Positions 20,754-32,164 of a stretch of DNA of 33,540 nt are shown piece after piece. The notes beneath the pieces were generated by a model. The model ran no database searches, was not told where the DNA came from, and worked only from the letters and a program-made list of their open reading frames with translations. Each line of letters begins with the position of its first letter. Position 1 is the first letter of the stretch. Both the position numbers and the translations under genes were made by a program. Origin of the DNA: Tychonema sp. LEGE 07203 (lineage in GTDB: Bacteria; Cyanobacteriota; Cyanobacteriia; Cyanobacteriales; Microcoleaceae); NCBI RefSeq assembly GCF_015207285.1, contig NZ_JADEXD010000062.1:1-33540 (forward strand), read 5' to 3'.

Positions 20754-21521
20754 CTAGACTTTGGTTAAAGGCTTAGTCCAAACGCCGGTTTCATCTTCTT
20801 CGTACTGCTGGTGAATGGCTTCCCAGGCGGTGTGTTCTGCTTGTATCGAGTCGTTGCTTTCGTCAAATGCGGTGTTGTAGGATTCGATGAAGGTTTTTTG
20901 TGCTGCTTCCGACAGGTGCGATCGCACTTCTGGAGATAAGTCTGCCGGACTGTTGCAGCGACCTTTGACGGCGCGCGGCAGCGTCATCTCGCTAACTGAA
21001 ACTTCTTCGCCGCCTGCACTTTCTAGCAATAGTTGAAATTCGCCCGATTTATCTGCGGCGACTTCGACCATCACGAGAAATTCGCCTGCTTCGACGCGGG
21101 TTTGATAGATAGTTGCTTTCTCTTCGGGCATTCCCAAAGCGACTAAAGCCGAAACTAGACCAGCACCGGCCGAACCTGCGATCGCGCCGCTAGCTGCACC
21201 CAACAGTACAGCACCCAGCGGGCCTGCGGATACTACTGCACCGACAAAGGGAATAAACAGCACGCCCACGCCGGTTAGCAAACCCAAAAAAGAACCGAAT
21301 AAGGAACCAAAAATCGCCCCGCTTCGCAAGCCTCCTAAAATTACATCTTTTTTAGTCAGAAAGCCGGCAATTTTAGTTTTGGACTGAAAGTTTTTGCCCA
21401 TTACGGAAATGTGGTCGCGGGAGACTCCGCGATCGAGCAACCGCCGAATTACGCCGTCTAATTGTTCTTCTTCCTTAAATACGGCTGAAACTGTGCGTTC
21501 TGCTAGATATTCCTCTGTCAT
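20754..21521 (-). CDS. ChaB-domain protein with glycine-zipper membrane segment
   Basis: A 255-aa protein of three parts. Residues 1-60 ([34 protein letters not shown]) resemble the small alpha/beta domain of general-stress proteins (YflT/GS17M type). Residues about 61-130 are rich in Gly, Ala and Leu with G-x-x-x-G spacing, a glycine-zipper membrane-active segment. Residues about 181-250 are a ChaB domain ([20 protein letters not shown]...[17 protein letters not shown]). ChaB is named from the E. coli calcium/proton antiporter regulator, but the domain's function is unclear. GGAG lies 6 bp before the ATG at 21521. A terminator follows. Confidence 0.9.
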
Positions 21522-23837: not shown

Positions 23838-23915
23838 CGCCAAGGTTGTTAAAGCATTTATGGTTATTTAACCCTTCGACTACGCTCAGGGAGCAATGAC
23901 CAAAGGGCCTTGGCG
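23838..23915. repeat. Intergenic repeat block with inverted ends before the SLH gene
   Basis: CGCCAAGG (23838-23845) and CCTTGGCG (23908-23915) are inverted ends around a centre that contains CCCTTCGACTACGCTCAGGG, a sequence of the kind repeated between cyanobacterial genes. It lies in the likely promoter/leader region of the SLH-protein gene. Confidence 0.55.
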
Positions 23916-23981
23916 ACTGGTATACTATGTAAACCTTGCGTGAGTTTCGATCGCAAATTTGGTGACAAAGGAGGCTGTTCT

Positions 23982-25463
23982 ATGGTTCGATCGCACAAAC
24001 GTCAAGCTGCCATTGCTTTAGTCGCAGCTTTCGGCACAATCATCGGAAATTTAGTGTTTCCTGGCCTGAATGTAGCCCCGGCATTGGCCCAGGCCAAATT
24101 TCAGGATGTTAAAGATCATTGGGCCCAAGGTTGCATAGAAGAATTAGCAGACAAAAAAATCATCAGCGGCTACTACGAAGACGGCACTTTTCGCCCGAAC
24201 CGCCCCGTCAGCCGCGCTGAGTTTGCGGCAATGCTGCGGAGAGCTTTTCCCGATGCAAAAACCGTCCGCAATCCGATAAACTTTGCAGATATTCCCACGA
24301 ATTACTGGGGATATCAACCAATTAGAGAAGCTTATCAGACTGGTTTTCTATCCGGTTACAGCGGCAGTATTTTTAACCCGACTTTGAACATTCCCCGCTG
24401 GCAGGTTTTGGTAGCATTAAGCAGCGGCTTGAAATATACACCTGCGGGCTCAGCCCCTGAGATTTTGGATGCGACTTTTGAGGATGCGCGGGAAATTCCC
24501 GAACTGGCAAGAAGTGCGATCGCCGCCGCGGCAGAAAAACAACTTGTGGTCAATTATCCCGCCGTCAAACAGCTAGAACCTACGCGCAATGCAACCCGCG
24601 CCGAAGTAGCAACTTTCTTGTGTCAGGCGATCGCCAAACCCGGACAAACAGCCTTAGTTCCCTCGCAATACATCGCCCAAGTCCCAACGAATGTCGGCCC
24701 GCCGAGAACCACAGAAGCCTCGGAGTCTGGGAAAGTTCGGGCAGAAGTTTCTTTCGTGAAAGAAGGAGAAAATGCTAAAAATATCCGCATCAAAATTATC
24801 CGCAGCGGTCAAACTTTATTAGAAGAACCCGTGCTAATCCCGACTCGTTCTCTAGTAGACAATCCCGACCCAAAAACCAGCGAAGAAGTATCCCAAGGGC
24901 GTTTTTTATCAGTACGAATTCGCGATTTAGACGGCGACAAAGAACCGGAAGTGCTGGCAGATTTAGTATCAATCAAAACAGGAGTTCGCTGCTGCAATTA
25001 TTCGTTCATTTACCGCTACGACTCGGCAGCAAAGAAATACACTCATATCAAGCATTTTTGGGGCAATGTGAGCTACGAAATTGTCGATTTTGGCAAAAAC
25101 GATATCCCAGAATTCAAGAGTCTAGACGGGCGATTTGCGGAGGCTTTTACAAATTATGCGGATTCTCGCTTGCCACTGCAAATTTGGCAGTACCGCCAAG
25201 GAAAAATGGAAGATATTACCAAGCAGTATCCGGTGGAAGTATACACGAATTCTGCTGAACTGTGGTTGGAATCTAGGAAGCGATCGAGCGAAGATGCAGA
25301 GGTGAAAGGGGTGTTGGCAGCATTCATGGCGAGCAAGTATGTTGCGGGCCAGGAGGCGGAAGGTTGGCAATTGTTGGACAAAGTTTATCAACAGCGCGAT
25401 CGCACTCAATTCTTTGCAAAATTGCGCGAGTTTTTGGTAAGCACGGGATATGCTAGCAAGTAG
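23982..25463 (+). CDS. S-layer homology (SLH) domain exported protein
   Basis: Envelope protein of 493 aa. The ATG at 23982 is chosen over the longer frame (from 23910) because AGGAGG lies 7 bp before it and it begins directly with a signal peptide (MVRSHKRQAAIALVAAFGT..., likely cleavage after PALAQA near residue 37). Three SLH repeats follow: about 38-90 (KFQDVKDHWAQGCIEEL...GTFRPNRPVSRAEFAAML), 96-148 (FADIPTNYWGYQPIREAYQ...PRWQVLVAL) and a divergent third at about 160-215 ending TRAEVATFL. SLH repeats bind cell-wall polymers. The C-terminal half (about 240-493) includes RIRDLDGDKEPEVLADL, similar to an FG-GAP/calcium-binding loop. Its role is unknown. Confidence 0.92.
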   Translation: MVRSHKRQAAIALVAAFGTIIGNLVFPGLNVAPALAQAKFQDVKDHWAQGCIEELADKKIISGYYEDGTFRPNRPVSRAEFAAMLRRAFPDAKTVRNPINFADIPTNYWGYQPIREAYQTGFLSGYSGSIFNPTLNIPRWQVLVALSSGLKYTPAGSAPEILDATFEDAREIPELARSAIAAAAEKQLVVNYPAVKQLEPTRNATRAEVATFLCQAIAKPGQTALVPSQYIAQVPTNVGPPRTTEASESGKVRAEVSFVKEGENAKNIRIKIIRSGQTLLEEPVLIPTRSLVDNPDPKTSEEVSQGRFLSVRIRDLDGDKEPEVLADLVSIKTGVRCCNYSFIYRYDSAAKKYTHIKHFWGNVSYEIVDFGKNDIPEFKSLDGRFAEAFTNYADSRLPLQIWQYRQGKMEDITKQYPVEVYTNSAELWLESRKRSSEDAEVKGVLAAFMASKYVAGQEAEGWQLLDKVYQQRDRTQFFAKLREFLVSTGYASK

Positions 25464-26857: not shown

Positions 26858-27337
26858 TTAAATGCCAGCCCCCGGAGCGGCTTTAGCACCCATTTCTAAA
26901 ACTGTACCGCGCAGGAAATCAATTTGCTTCTGAAAGTCCATGCCCTGAATCTTTCCTAATAAAGCTTTTCCTGCTTCGGGAATTTCATAGTCGGAAGGTA
27001 CGGGAATAATTGTTCCTTCGTCCATTCCTACTGCTAGAAAATACCAAAAAGCCAGCTTGGTTTCAGGACTCATTGAGCCGTACATCCGGCTGATTTCAGT
27101 ATTGGCTTTTGAGGCAATGTCGCGCATTACTTGCAGTTGTTCTTCGTGGGGCAGCGGCTTGACTTGCTCGAATAAACCCCGAGCGATTTCGGAACCTGCA
27201 GCACCGGGAGCCGCTGGCGTGATTGACTTGCCCATTTTGGTGTAAACAAACCACAGCAAACCTAATTGATCGTCTACGCTCAAGCTCTGAATTTCTGCTT
27301 TTCCTTGGTCGTAGGCGCTGCTAGTAGAAAATGTCAT
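26858..27337 (-). CDS. Helical carotenoid protein (OCP N-terminal domain only)
   Basis: A 159-aa all-helical protein homologous to the N-terminal carotenoid-binding domain of orange carotenoid protein, without the C-terminal NTF2-like domain. Such stand-alone proteins (HCPs) bind a ketocarotenoid and act as singlet-oxygen quenchers or, in some clades, as phycobilisome quenchers. Counting from the ATG at 27337, residues aligning with OCP carotenoid/phycobilisome contacts are kept: Trp29 and Tyr32 (LLWFVYTKMG, OCP Trp41 and Tyr44), Trp98 (LAFWYFL, OCP Trp110) and Arg143 (DFLRGTV, OCP Arg155). GGAG lies 9 bp before this start; the frame runs 16 codons further without support. No C-terminal-domain homolog gene is adjacent. 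Confidence 0.94.
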   Translation of the reverse strand: MTFSTSSAYDQGKAEIQSLSVDDQLGLLWFVYTKMGKSITPAAPGAAGSEIARGLFEQVKPLPHEEQLQVMRDIASKANTEISRMYGSMSPETKLAFWYFLAVGMDEGTIIPVPSDYEIPEAGKALLGKIQGMDFQKQIDFLRGTVLEMGAKAAPGAGI

Positions 27338-27699
27338 TTCTTCAGTCTCCAAAATAATATGTATTGCTCTGTTTGCCGATCGCAAAAACTTGTTTTGCTA
27401 CTTAATAAAAGTTAGCGAATCAATAGGGAGACTAGAATCTTGCGGAAGGTAGAGATGAACCCCGACAGTAATTGGTGGTGGCTCCGAAGGTGGTAGGAAG
27501 TTTACAACTAAAGGACGATGCGGTGTGTTTCAGGTCAAGTTCGATCGATCGCAATTCAGTTTTTCTTGATTTTTGAGTACCTAAGTGCGATCGAACCTTT
27601 TTTTGCCGTGGGAGCGGATACGATATTATTCCCAAGAAAATAGGCTGGCAAACCGCCAGCCTAGAATCAGGAGAAACTTAATTGAAACTTGTTGAAATT
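27338..27699. other. Intergenic region upstream of the carotenoid protein gene
   Basis: The 362 bp hold the terminator hairpin at 27641-27663 belonging to the 1041-aa protein gene, and the presumed promoter of the carotenoid protein gene. A 67-codon minus-strand frame (27432-27635) has no protein-like features. Confidence 0.65.
27641..27663 (-). terminator. Rho-independent terminator of the 1041-aa protein gene
   Basis: TAGGCTGGC and GCCAGCCTA form a perfect 9-bp stem with a 5-base loop. On the minus strand it is followed by TTTTCTT. It lies 36 bp past the stop codon and separates this gene from the carotenoid protein gene. Confidence 0.85.
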
Positions 27700-30600
27700 C
27701 TAGCTAAACAAACCCGAAATACCGCCGACTGCTATTGCTCCAGCCAGAGCCGAAACAACCACAGAAGTTAGAGCCGTACCGAACAGCCACCAAGCAGCAG
27801 TTGCGGCTGCTTCGCGAGCATCTTCTGCTTGCTGCTTGGTCTTTTTCTTGAGCTCTTTAATGCGTTTTTTGGCTTCATTTTGCAGGCGTTCCGAGCGCGA
27901 CAGCACGCTGTCCCTGGCTCCTTCAATTTGGTCGATAATTTTGTTAGCTTGGCCTTCTGAAATATCGGGGCGAGAGCTAATTACCGCGACTAAAGTACCG
28001 CGATCGAACTCGCCTAAACGCTCTTTAATCGCGTCAAATCCGGCCTGCGGGTCGTCAAACACTTTGCGGAAGTCTCGCTTAATGCTTTCGTAGTTGAGTT
28101 CAGGTCGATCGAGCGAATTGAGGTAATCCCGAATTTTCGCGAAAATACCGTCAATTGCCGACTGGAACTTGTCTTGCACCATTTGAACTTGTTCGACAAA
28201 CTCGTTGCGGACAGATTCGATACGATCGGCAATTTGGTTAGCTTCCGCTTCGGAGATGTCTTCCCGCTGCGACAGCAAGGCTACCAGCGTACCGCGATCG
28301 AAGTGCTTCACGCGATCGCCCAAACTTTGCATCCCCATTCCCGGCTCGTTAAACAGCAACTGCAAATCGCGTTTGATACCTTCGGGATTGAGTTCTTCCT
28401 TGTTGGTATTCCGCAAGTAATTTTCCAAACTTCCTTGGAAATCCGTTACTCTTTTTTGAGCGCGAGATGCCAAGCGGCGGGGCGATTTCACGATGCTGCG
28501 AATCGAATCTTGCACGCGATCGATCGTCCGATTGATTTGTTCTTCGCTCAAATCTTCCCGCTGCGAAAGCAACTTGACTAAGGTTTCGCGATCGACCTGA
28601 GACAGCCTTTCCCGCAGCGCCAAAGCACCTTCTTTCGGATTTTCTAACAATTTGGTCAAATCTCGATTGATGGCTTCTGGATCGAGTTCTTCCAAGTTGG
28701 TATTCCGCAGGTAATCGCCAATTTTTGCAGTAACTTCCTCGTACTGTTGCTTAGCTCTATCTGCGACTATTTGCGGCGCGTGGATAATGTTGTCGCGGAC
28801 GGATTCGATTTTGTCGATCGCCCGATCGATCTGTTCTTGGCTGAGGTCTTGGCGCTGCGACAGCAGTTGCACCAACGTATCGCGGTCGAATTGAGACAAG
28901 CGTTCTCTCAACGCTTTCAATCCCGCTTCCGGGTCGCTTAACAGCGTTTGAAACTCGCGCTCGATCGCTTCAGGATTGAGTTCTTCCTTGTTAGTATTGC
29001 GGAGATACTCTTCTACCTTTTGCCGCAATTCTTGTGCTCGCGATTGCGCTTGCTCTTGCAATTCTTGAGATTTGGCAATTACGCGATCGCGCGAACTTTC
29101 CAGCCGTCCGATTAACCGATCCGCTTCCTCTGGACTGAAATCTTCCCGCTGGCCTAGCAACTGCACCAAAGTATCGCGGTCAAATTGCGACAGGCGATCG
29201 CGCAAAGCCTCAAAACCAGCATCGCGATCGTCCAAAAGCGCTTGGAAATCCCGCTCGATACCTTCAGGATTCAATTCTTCCTTACCAGTCGATCGCAAAT
29301 AATTCTCAATTCGGCTGCGTAAATCTTGAGACTGTTCCTCACCAGCAGCATCTCGAACAATTCCCAAAACTTCTTGACGGACACCTTCAAGCTGTTCGGA
29401 AATTTCCGCCGCCTGTTCCTGACTAAACCCGTCGCGGCGGCCCAAAATCCCTACAAAATATTCAGGATTCAACTGTTCTAACTGGCGCAAAACCGCCCCC
29501 GGAGAAGCTTCGGGATCGTAAATAACATCCCTAAATTCCTGCTTGATAGTTTCTCGGTTGAGATGCCAAGGTTGAGTATTCAGCAAGTAATTTTCCACAT
29601 CAGCCTTAGCTGTATTGAAAGGCAGCGCAGGCAATTTATCCCCCACTCGATCCGTCAAAGACTTAGCTTTTTCCTTTCCTTTTGCAGTTAGTTGCTGCAA
29701 CTGACCAGAGATTTTTTCAACATCCAAATCCGACAAATCAGTTCGCGACAAAACAGTGCCCACCAGAGCTTCCACACCAAACTGCATCGCTCGGTTCATG
29801 CCCCCGCTGGACTCGGATTTATGTTCCCTACTTTCCAGGATTTGAGACAATTTGGCGTTGAGTTCGTCAGACTTCAGCAAATCGGGAGCCGCAAATTTGA
29901 GAAAATCAACCAACTCTAAATTCGGGTCTTTCTTTTCTTGCTGCTTGCCAAATGTTTGCTTCCAAACGCCTTCTAATTGGTCAGCAACTTGATTTATTTC
30001 CTCTTGAGAAAAATCACTGCGACTGCTAATTAAATCCACAAAAGTTTGGCGGTTAACATTCTTTAAAACATCGGTTCCCGCCAGAGATTTGATATCGGCA
30101 TCCCCCAGCAACTTTTCAAATTGACCGCGAATTTCCTTGACATCCAACTTCGGCAACTGCAAAGAACCCACATAATCTTGCAGTGTTTCGCGAATGCTCT
30201 CCGGGTCTACAGCCGAGCTCAATTCGCGGCGGACAGCAGCCACAGATGCTTCCACAGTATTGACCATTTGGTCGCCGGCCATCTTGCCGCCGATCGCTGA
30301 ACCGGCAGTACCCATAACGCCTTGAATGCCTGAAAAAGCAGTTTTTATCAAGGAACCGATCATCGAGCCGACGGCGCTAGAACCCAGCCATACCAGGGTT
30401 AAAAAGTACGCAGCCCAAATGACAACACCAATAATTGCCGCTCCATCTACCGAGGAAATTGAAGTTAACTTGACTGCCAGAAAACAAGCTACAAATAAAG
30501 CTATGTTAACTGTGACTAAAATCCAACCGCCGACTAGACCTTCAGTCTTCCGAATTTTAGTACCAAAACTTTCGGAATCGTCATCATCATCGGGTAAAGC

Positions 30601-30825
30601 GTCGTCCCAATTAGATATTTTGGCGGCAATCGAGAAATTGGTTAACAGGAATTGGAAGCCGAAAGCCATAATGACTCCGGCGATTAATGCCACGAAAAAC
30701 TGAGGACTTAGAAACATCAGCCCTGCGACATCGGGGTGCTGGAACGGGACATCTCTTTGCACCGGCATTTGGGCAATATTGAATTTGGGACTGTACAGCG
30801 ACATTAATAACTCGCTTTCAAACAT
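27700..30825 (-). CDS. Large membrane protein with eight ~98-residue helical repeats, function unknown
   Basis: A 1041-aa protein I cannot assign. Three predicted transmembrane helices lie near the N-terminus (about 41-62, 98-119, 130-150), split by an acidic loop (DDALPDDDDDSES). A Gly/Ala-rich stretch (about 150-185) follows. Residues about 215-985 are eight repeats of about 98 residues, centred on Y/F at 218, 308 (degenerate), 413, 509, 607, 705, 803 and 901. A typical unit reads YLRNTNKEELNPEAIERE, then a DPEAG turn, then ALRERLSQFDRDTLVQLLSQ, then an acidic turn and IDKIESVRD. A basic coiled segment (KKRIKELKKKTKQQ, about 986-1000) precedes a C-terminal transmembrane helix (about 1011-1035). 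AGGAGG lies 6 bp before the ATG. A long soluble rod anchored at both ends is inferred. Confidence 0.9.
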   Translation of the reverse strand: MFESELLMSLYSPKFNIAQMPVQRDVPFQHPDVAGLMFLSPQFFVALIAGVIMAFGFQFLLTNFSIAAKISNWDDALPDDDDDSESFGTKIRKTEGLVGGWILVTVNIALFVACFLAVKLTSISSVDGAAIIGVVIWAAYFLTLVWLGSSAVGSMIGSLIKTAFSGIQGVMGTAGSAIGGKMAGDQMVNTVEASVAAVRRELSSAVDPESIRETLQDYVGSLQLPKLDVKEIRGQFEKLLGDADIKSLAGTDVLKNVNRQTFVDLISSRSDFSQEEINQVADQLEGVWKQTFGKQQEKKDPNLELVDFLKFAAPDLLKSDELNAKLSQILESREHKSESSGGMNRAMQFGVEALVGTVLSRTDLSDLDVEKISGQLQQLTAKGKEKAKSLTDRVGDKLPALPFNTAKADVENYLLNTQPWHLNRETIKQEFRDVIYDPEASPGAVLRQLEQLNPEYFVGILGRRDGFSQEQAAEISEQLEGVRQEVLGIVRDAAGEEQSQDLRSRIENYLRSTGKEELNPEGIERDFQALLDDRDAGFEALRDRLSQFDRDTLVQLLGQREDFSPEEADRLIGRLESSRDRVIAKSQELQEQAQSRAQELRQKVEEYLRNTNKEELNPEAIEREFQTLLSDPEAGLKALRERLSQFDRDTLVQLLSQRQDLSQEQIDRAIDKIESVRDNIIHAPQIVADRAKQQYEEVTAKIGDYLRNTNLEELDPEAINRDLTKLLENPKEGALALRERLSQVDRETLVKLLSQREDLSEEQINRTIDRVQDSIRSIVKSPRRLASRAQKRVTDFQGSLENYLRNTNKEELNPEGIKRDLQLLFNEPGMGMQSLGDRVKHFDRGTLVALLSQREDISEAEANQIADRIESVRNEFVEQVQMVQDKFQSAIDGIFAKIRDYLNSLDRPELNYESIKRDFRKVFDDPQAGFDAIKERLGEFDRGTLVAVISSRPDISEGQANKIIDQIEGARDSVLSRSERLQNEAKKRIKELKKKTKQQAEDAREAAATAAWWLFGTALTSVVVSALAGAIAVGGISGLFS
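27871..30183 (-). repeat. Eight coding repeats of about 294 bp
   Basis: The DNA encoding residues about 215-985 of the large membrane protein. Equivalent Tyr codons of units 3-8 are at residues 413, 509, 607, 705, 803 and 901, so spacing is 96 then a constant 98 codons. Units 4-7 are most alike (EYLRNTNKEELNPE and SQFDRDTLVQLLSQRxD recur); units 1 and 2 are degenerate. Confidence 0.9.
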
Positions 30826-31234: not shown

Positions 31235-32164
31235 TTAGGATTCCGTTTGATTTTTAGGCTGAAAACGAGCTAGTAATTGCGGGCGTTCGAGCTGCCTAAT
31301 CAGTCGCGCGCGATCGAGGCTTTCTAGTTTAATCAAAGGCTCGATTATTTGGGCTAATTCTTCATCAATTTCGCCAAATTTCACTTGTAGCATACTCTCA
31401 ACTATCAAGCGTTGACTGCGCTGGATACCTTCTTGGATACCTTCTTGGATACCTCGTTGAGTTGCATCTTCAAGCCGTTGCAAATAGAGGGGTGACAGTT
31501 CCATAATTAACTCCCGATCTTCTCGATCTATGTCTTGGCGGATTTCTAAAATTGTTCGCAAGTTGTACAACAATTCTAACGCGCTCAACCGAAAGAAATT
31601 ATCAGAGGGTAATTCTCTCAATTCGGCAATAGCTTGCTTTTGCACGTTTCCCTTCCCCAAAACCCTCAGCCACAGCGTTTCGGGAGTGCGGGGCAGTTGG
31701 TGAATGGCAATGATTGCTGCTTTCAGAGACGGACTCAGAAAATAAACTCCATTTACCCAATTTTCGGTTTCGGGAATCGCTCCAAATCCAGCTAACATAA
31801 CGTCGGAAATCGTCGGCGACAGTATCCAGAGTTGGGGCAAGTCTGCCTCTGCAATCCTGCTATTATCTCTGGCTGCGACTCGTTCATATTCGGCGTGGAC
31901 ATCAAATAGTTTGCCCAAACAACTGCGAATTTCTCCAGTTTGAACAGGACTGCGGAATGGTTCCAATACAGCGGGTTTTGCTGCAATTTTACCCAAAATG
32001 CCGAGGGCTGTTGCTTCGACTTCTGGTTCCGCTTTGGGGGCAAAAAAAACGTCAATCTGCCTCACTTCTCCAGCAATGTCGAGGCTGGTTTCGACTTTGC
32101 CCAGAGGGGTTAATAGTTCTTTGAGATACTGTTTGGCGAATTGGTCGTGAATAAATCTAGTGAT
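31235..32164 (-). pseudogene. Rpn/DUF4351-type protein gene lacking a normal start codon
   Basis: A cyanobacterial Rpn-like family protein, about 310 codons. The frame is open from 32176. The conserved N-terminus is present in frame as TRFIHDQFAKQYLKELL, but the codon where the family has its initiating ATG is ATC (32162-32164), and no ATG, GTG or TTG precedes it before the TAG stop. The first standard start is the GTG at 32065, giving 276 aa that begin MRQIDVFFAPK and miss 33 conserved residues. Downstream the frame is intact: EPFRSPVQTGEIRSCLGKL, LPQLWILSPTISDVMLAGFGA, a threefold EGIQ repeat, and the usual helical C-terminus. It is either a gene inactivated by start loss, one using a rare ATC/ATT start, or one using the GTG. 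Confidence 0.72.

Follow-up and report, generated by a model that had tools for sequence, protein, structure and literature searches.

What does a cyanobacterium do with a protein of 1041 amino acids that carries hydrophobic segments at both ends and, in between, eight helical units of about 98 residues? Such a protein is encoded by the minus strand at 27700-30825 of a 33,540-nucleotide stretch of the Tychonema sp. LEGE 07203 genome (contig NZ_JADEXD010000062.1), the whole of which is called the window below. The 1041-residue frame of the original prediction is confirmed, with an ATG start, and a dN/dS of 0.09-0.16 in the five ortholog pairs computed, signifying purifying selection, marks it as a gene under selection. 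The source genome contains a second copy that is 53% identical. What can be seen directly is that the protein belongs to a family, has hydrophobic ends and eight units, is under purifying selection and has the gene neighborhood described below; the proposed function is built upon these.

Distribution and phylogeny

The repeat protein is, by comparison with its relatives, a member of a cyanobacterial family with paralogues and no isolated oddity. The family was defined by eight units, at least three N-terminal hydrophobic segments and one C-terminal hydrophobic segment, all of which the window protein has. A search of the phylum placed the family in 57 of 386 cyanobacterial genomes (its own included), and relatives are present in 23 of 29 near genomes; a second phylum search with the unit profile, a check suggested in the original prediction, added two genomes with weak matches (E values of 1.9e-4 and 3.9e-4) that were left uncounted. 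These searches scored at most two or at most 13 candidate stretches per genome, and so the 329 genomes without a match are provisional absences and the copy numbers (two in 31 and one in 19 of the 50 genomes tallied) are lower bounds. Most copies are 1010-1100 amino acids long. With 329 of 386 cyanobacteria lacking a match, the family would not serve a general need of thylakoids. The nearest named relatives are from Tychonema, Microcoleus and similar filamentous strains; a scan of genome contigs, which reaches close relatives only, found 19 loci, all cyanobacterial by title, and plasmid records contained no match to the protein. The unit profile alone revealed one more copy, in a frame of 1044 aa (G148:C1:227760-228926), and a very divergent relative (G235:C21:31744-34092; 26-35% identity) occupies a 922-aa frame.

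A tree was made of 44 proteins: 39 of 40 loci of the wide set (L172, with a broken frame, was left out), the window protein and four others. The window protein belongs to clade A, which comprises 32 rows with support of 99/99, and three genomes (G327, G091, G189) have one copy inside clade A and one outside. The tree is uncertain at its root and at some forks, and the 12 rows that do not belong to clade A are possibly not one clade.

HetR, a marker of filamentous cyanobacteria, is present in 50 of the 57 repeat-bearing genomes and lacking in seven, while 30 genomes have HetR without a repeat match and 299 have neither (raw counts, uncorrected for kinship). This association would suit a protein of septa or cell-cell contacts in filamentous cyanobacteria, as would the existence of SepT, a coiled-coil-rich membrane protein with a septal role (PMC10653889), which like the repeat protein is membrane-anchored and rich in helices. 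A septal role is nevertheless improbable: the 30 HetR-bearing genomes without a match speak against it, and among the families sought, the gene neighbors found (below) are of curvature and stress types. From SepT and similar coiled-coil-rich cyanobacterial proteins, the repeat protein differs in its units of fixed length and its anchors at both ends.

Repeat units

Comparison of the protein with itself gives peaks at offsets of 98, 196, 294 and 392 residues (local BLOSUM scores of 940, 649, 453 and 242), and the best listed offset away from multiples of 98 is 347, with a score of 68. Tyrosine anchors of units 3-8 at residues 413, 509, 607, 705, 803 and 901 reproduce the spacings of 96, 98, 98, 98 and 98 residues originally given for these units, but the regularity has to be corrected at the beginning of the rod, where units 1-3 are set 90 and 105 residues apart. 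When units 3-8 are made into a profile, it recovers two more units, the only ones independent of it: unit 1, with 58.7 bits, and unit 2, which is degenerate, with 15.1 bits (E value of 9e-7 in a search of one protein). The original count of eight units of about 98 residues stands in that the profile finds eight, with the qualification that unit 2 is weak. By the profile, the units are encoded on the minus strand as follows: unit 1 (residues 210-303) at 29917-30198; unit 2 (about residues 304-400), the degenerate one, at 29626-29916; unit 3 (405-501) at 29323-29613; unit 4 (501-597) at 29035-29325; unit 5 (599-695), which is also within a structural model of 1.6 units, at 28741-29031; unit 6 (697-793), the first part of which is within the same model, at 28447-28737; unit 7 (795-891) at 28153-28443; and unit 8 (893-989) at 27859-28149.

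Eight units are found in 34 of the 44 proteins (the window's included), seven units in seven proteins and nine in three, and all of these differences fall at unit 2. In a wider calling of units over 66 rows, which include duplicates of one locus, 53 rows have eight calls (one of them, L065, a double call), 12 have seven and one has ten; unit 2 is the one not called in the 12 seven-call rows, yet in each of them unit 3 begins 183-210 residues after the beginning of unit 1. Variation of repeat number, which had been proposed for checking, is thus slight, the number being nearly fixed at eight across the family. The relative with ten called units (L023 of genome G019) has one in-frame stop.

The units are also fixed in order. 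When the window protein was compared with 32 other eight-unit proteins, seven of its eight units had their best match in the corresponding unit in 30 or more of the 32 comparisons, whereas unit 4 did so in 13. These seven positions also match in the second copy of its own genome and in the protein of genome G192, and because these two are outside clade A, the eight-unit length and order predate the split of the paralogues. Conservation climbs along the rod: among 43 of the 44 proteins (the M. vaginatus row was omitted here and from the counts of charge below), the number of columns at least 90% conserved is 10, 4, 15 and 12 in units 1-4 and 30, 36, 34 and 43 in units 5-8, unit 8 being the most conserved. 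Position-specific units and conservation that is highest in units 5-8 are what would be expected of a docking platform, in which the units recruit a partner (stress proteins, the phycobilisome or helical carotenoid protein) to the membrane and their spacing is incidental. The gene neighborhood bears on this alternative further, as described below.

Comparison with known families

Pfam, NCBIfam and the PDB contain no convincing match to the unit, in keeping with the original claim that the repeat is of no characterized family, and to judge by these searches the protein belongs to no known family. In NCBIfam nothing comes close to any cut-off. PDB sequences, searched with the protein and with profiles of the unit and of the orthologs, were equally unconvincing, the lowest E value (3.2e-4) belonging to a designed protein that aligns over two short helical segments. 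The apolipoprotein A/E model (PF01442) scores 31.5 bits (E value of 1.8e-7), far below its cut-off of 90. One of 28 units matches a spectrin model, with an E value of 0.039. The CAAD domain (PF14159), stand-alone proteins of which are taken here to be CurT/CURT1, was not found in the window protein at E values up to 1. Matches to the PADLOC and PHROGs collections are weak and include no significant stretch; those that, with the designed PDB protein, have the lowest E values outside Pfam are two: the PADLOC model PDLC00706 ("2TM effector"; E value of 2.7e-5, 22 bits) aligns with the rod rather than the anchors, and phrog_8908, of unknown function, matches 19 residues with an E value of 4.3e-4. 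In the open-licence literature, as represented by titles and the beginnings of abstracts, no paper was recognized as describing the repeat.

The HU/IHF family, whose HU-like domain consists of a helical hairpin and beta arms, was also a candidate, since the summed score of its model (PF00216, Bac_DNA_binding) over the whole protein is 26.5 bits and exceeds the cut-off of 22.4, five of 28 units match it at E values up to 0.1 (the best being 0.0062), and phrog_379, a DNA binding protein, scores 16.4 bits. The corresponding function would be that of a nucleoid tether with HU-like hairpins that bind DNA. We consider this highly improbable: none of the PF00216 stretches is significant, the best one spans profile positions 2-50 of 90, and the repeat protein is acidic (132 K/R versus 172 D/E).

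Gene neighborhood

About 315 bp downstream of the repeat gene and on the same strand is a gene of the helical carotenoid protein (HCP) type with a single Carot_N domain (26858-27385, minus strand; E value of 1e-55). An HCP-type gene is downstream in 13 of the 19 related loci, two of the 13 being partial matches, and no downstream HCP gene is found at the other six (L030, L032, L034, L037, L043, L045), some of which are short or cut. Its presence favors recruitment of a partner by the repeat units, but the 40 loci from other genera and second copies all lack an HCP gene nearby, and the neighbors in general vary among genera, all of which makes a docking function unlikely. The HCP gene is possibly a functional context separate from the rod.

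In other genera, the neighbors of the family are of curvature and stress types. Of 81 repeat genes in 50 genomes, 16 have a CAAD domain encoded no more than 4.5 kb away, and the CAAD matches of five scanned neighbors have E values from 2e-29 to 2e-35. A 285-aa piece in G079 and six further genomes belonging to the window's genus are excluded from this count; in those six, no CAAD domain was seen by eye near the repeat gene. The tree includes fifteen of the 16 CAAD-linked repeat genes, every one of them within clade A, and the remaining one (G212) has a broken frame and is unplaced. Fifteen genomes, all of one family (f14), have a single arrangement, in which the CAAD gene is upstream of the repeat gene and divergent from it, with YflT-type and mostly BON-type genes between them. 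Genome G206, of another family, has the repeat gene, CAAD, YflT/DUF2382 and BON genes on one strand, with CAAD 0.3 kb downstream; its CAAD protein does not fall in the clade formed by the other fifteen, but its branch is so long that the linked CAAD genes could still be of one origin. YflT-type genes are near 18 and BON-type genes near 15 of the 40 loci examined, which are counts rather than rates because 11 of the loci were chosen for their CAAD linkage. In G155, YflT-type matches come after the repeat gene. At the 10 of these loci that are outside clade A, none of the five neighbor families sought was found. CAAD itself is independent of the repeat gene, being present in all 30 HetR-bearing genomes that lack a repeat match, 10 of which have, by eye, two stand-alone frames shorter than 300 aa.

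The original description of the locus as a candidate system therefore has a basis in the gene neighborhood of the 15 f14 genomes and of one genome with an altered order, but not in the window's own genus, where the neighbor is an HCP gene instead. According to a review, CURT1 consists of two membrane helices and two further helices (PMC9950537); CurT homologues of Anabaena have been named (PMC11500504), and expression data have been published for Npun_F3786, Npun_F3787 (BON) and Npun_F3789 of Nostoc punctiforme (PMC7660261).

Several other genes of the window and its relatives may be mentioned. A stress protein with YflT, ChaB and ActD-like similarity (20754-21521, minus strand) is grouped by BLAST with the YflT neighbors of the repeat gene elsewhere. 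The gene at 31235-32065 (minus strand) has weak similarity to Rpn-family/DUF4351 proteins and a relative in 13 of the 19 related loci, and that at 23910-25463 (plus strand) encodes an SLH-domain protein with a weak likeness to an iron-uptake porin. G000:C315:7490-7741 and five relatives of its genus have CAAD within an open frame of 759-859 aa, possibly a fusion; most listed CAAD domains are in frames that are either some 1000-1200 aa or some 150 aa long.

Membrane anchors and topology

Hydrophobic segments of the window protein are located at about residues 36-61, 102-120, 129-147 and 1010-1040. The N-terminal anchor (about residues 36-148; 30382-30720, minus strand) has three such segments in 41 of the 44 proteins and four in the other three, and in all 44 (1011-1098 residues) the rod has none and the C-terminal end has one (residues 1010-1040; 27706-27798, minus strand in the window). 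The three N-terminal membrane helices and one C-terminal helix of the original prediction are thus recovered as hydrophobic segments, and every protein compared has both anchors. Between the N-terminal anchor and the rod is a conserved Gly/Ser-rich stretch (residues 149-205; 30211-30381, minus strand) with 20 columns at least 90% conserved, and before the C-terminal anchor is a basic stretch (residues 985-1009; 27799-27873, minus strand) with nine K/R and four D/E, the means of the family being 6.4 K/R and 3.0 D/E.

Mean numbers of K/R in 43 proteins are 0.7 in the N-terminal tail, 3.1 in the first loop, 0.0 in the turn, 3.1 after the third segment, 6.4 before the fourth and 0.1 in the C-terminal tail. 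By the positive-inside rule, this distribution would place the rod in the cytoplasm and both termini on the opposite side, but it is suggestive only, since the regions compared are unequal in length (25, 38, 6, 57, 25 and 6 residues) and the first loop is net acidic (5.3 D/E). A cytoplasmic rod would fit a link between thylakoids or between a thylakoid and the plasma membrane. As far as sequence goes, the two anchors are compatible either with bridging two membranes or with looping back to one.

Predicted structure and length of the rod

A model of the whole protein, derived from 16 close orthologs, had a pLDDT of 40 and served only to suggest where helices might begin and end. An alignment of three units was out of register and was dropped; one of 1.6 units (residues 597-757) was in register and gave a helical model from 65 register-matched rows with a pLDDT of 71 and a pTM of 0.42. 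The helical nature of the repeats is upheld, and the structure prediction suggested at the outset succeeded for the part but not for the whole. With moderate confidence, a unit is predicted to be three short helices and then a long one, of about 45 residues, which is broken near the conserved P684 and continues into the unit that follows; the relative orientation of the units in the model is uncertain. A Foldseek comparison of the 1.6-unit model with the PDB returned 35 matches at E values up to 10 and none at or below 0.001. Spectrin-type rods and alpha-solenoids are likewise tandem helical units, and those of the repeat protein seem to be similarly joined by long helices; the differences are the predicted make-up of the unit, in which about 98 residues form three short helices and a long helix with a break, the lack of any significant above-cut-off stretch of a known family and the lack of a fold match in the PDB.

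The upper bound of rod length is eight helices of 45 residues at 0.15 nm per residue, or about 54 nm (about 6.7 nm per unit). For Synechocystis, transmission electron microscopy is quoted as giving a thylakoid repeat distance of 34-55 nm (PMC8090863), and thus the size of the rod fits a bridge without showing that there is one.

The same protein might be a scaffold parallel to a single membrane, with both anchors in that membrane and the rod lying along it to stiffen or corral the membrane under stress in the manner of spectrin. This is possible, if on the unlikely side. The two anchors would fit it equally, the stress-type and CAAD neighbors are just as compatible with it, the modeled long helices between units would suit it, and the similarity to the apolipoprotein model hints at amphipathic helices, although that score is far below its cut-off; against it, a nearly fixed length of eight units is explained more easily by a ruler than by a belt.

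Proposed function

The function tentatively preferred, to which we give a little less than an even chance, is that of a tether or spacer of thylakoid and/or plasma membranes that acts with CurT-type proteins under membrane stress. The eight-unit helical rod, nearly constant in length and in the order of its units, would be fixed in membrane at both ends, its N-terminal domain of three helices presumably in one membrane or sheet and its C-terminal helix in the opposing one, and would set the distance between thylakoid sheets and/or the plasma membrane or attach them to each other; CurT-type curvature proteins would act jointly with the rod when membranes are under stress, and the well conserved units 5-8 may bind a partner. 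In other words, we infer a cytoplasmic rod with a role in membrane architecture at times of stress, exerted by tethering. More specifically, and more doubtfully, the protein could be a cytoplasmic molecular ruler, in which the eight-unit rod across two opposing membranes determines the thylakoid-thylakoid or thylakoid-plasma membrane distance, with a CurT-type gene beside it in some lineages and use under membrane stress. Against a tether is the link to CAAD in only 16 of 81 copies, 15 of which represent one arrangement in one family.

AncM of Synechocystis was reportedly described by Ostermeier in 2022 as an anchor between the thylakoid and the plasma membrane. It is an integral membrane protein that is genetically linked to CurT. 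Compared by description, with no alignment of sequences, AncM resembles the repeat protein in being a membrane protein with a proposed role in attachment of thylakoids, and CurT/CURT1 resembles it as another cyanobacterial membrane protein, encoded beside some of its copies; the repeat protein differs from CurT/CURT1 in having no CAAD domain. AncM is treated in PMC13353191 and PMC10708155, the second of which speaks of a homologue in Synechococcus 7942, whereas most cyanobacteria searched have no match to the repeat family.

In our judgement, the factors that space and attach the thylakoid sheets of cyanobacteria are poorly understood, CurT and AncM being two that have been named. A double-anchored rod of conserved length, encoded beside CurT-type genes in some lineages, is a concrete candidate for a further one, and strains of the Nostoc/Anabaena type are genetically tractable organisms in which it may be studied.
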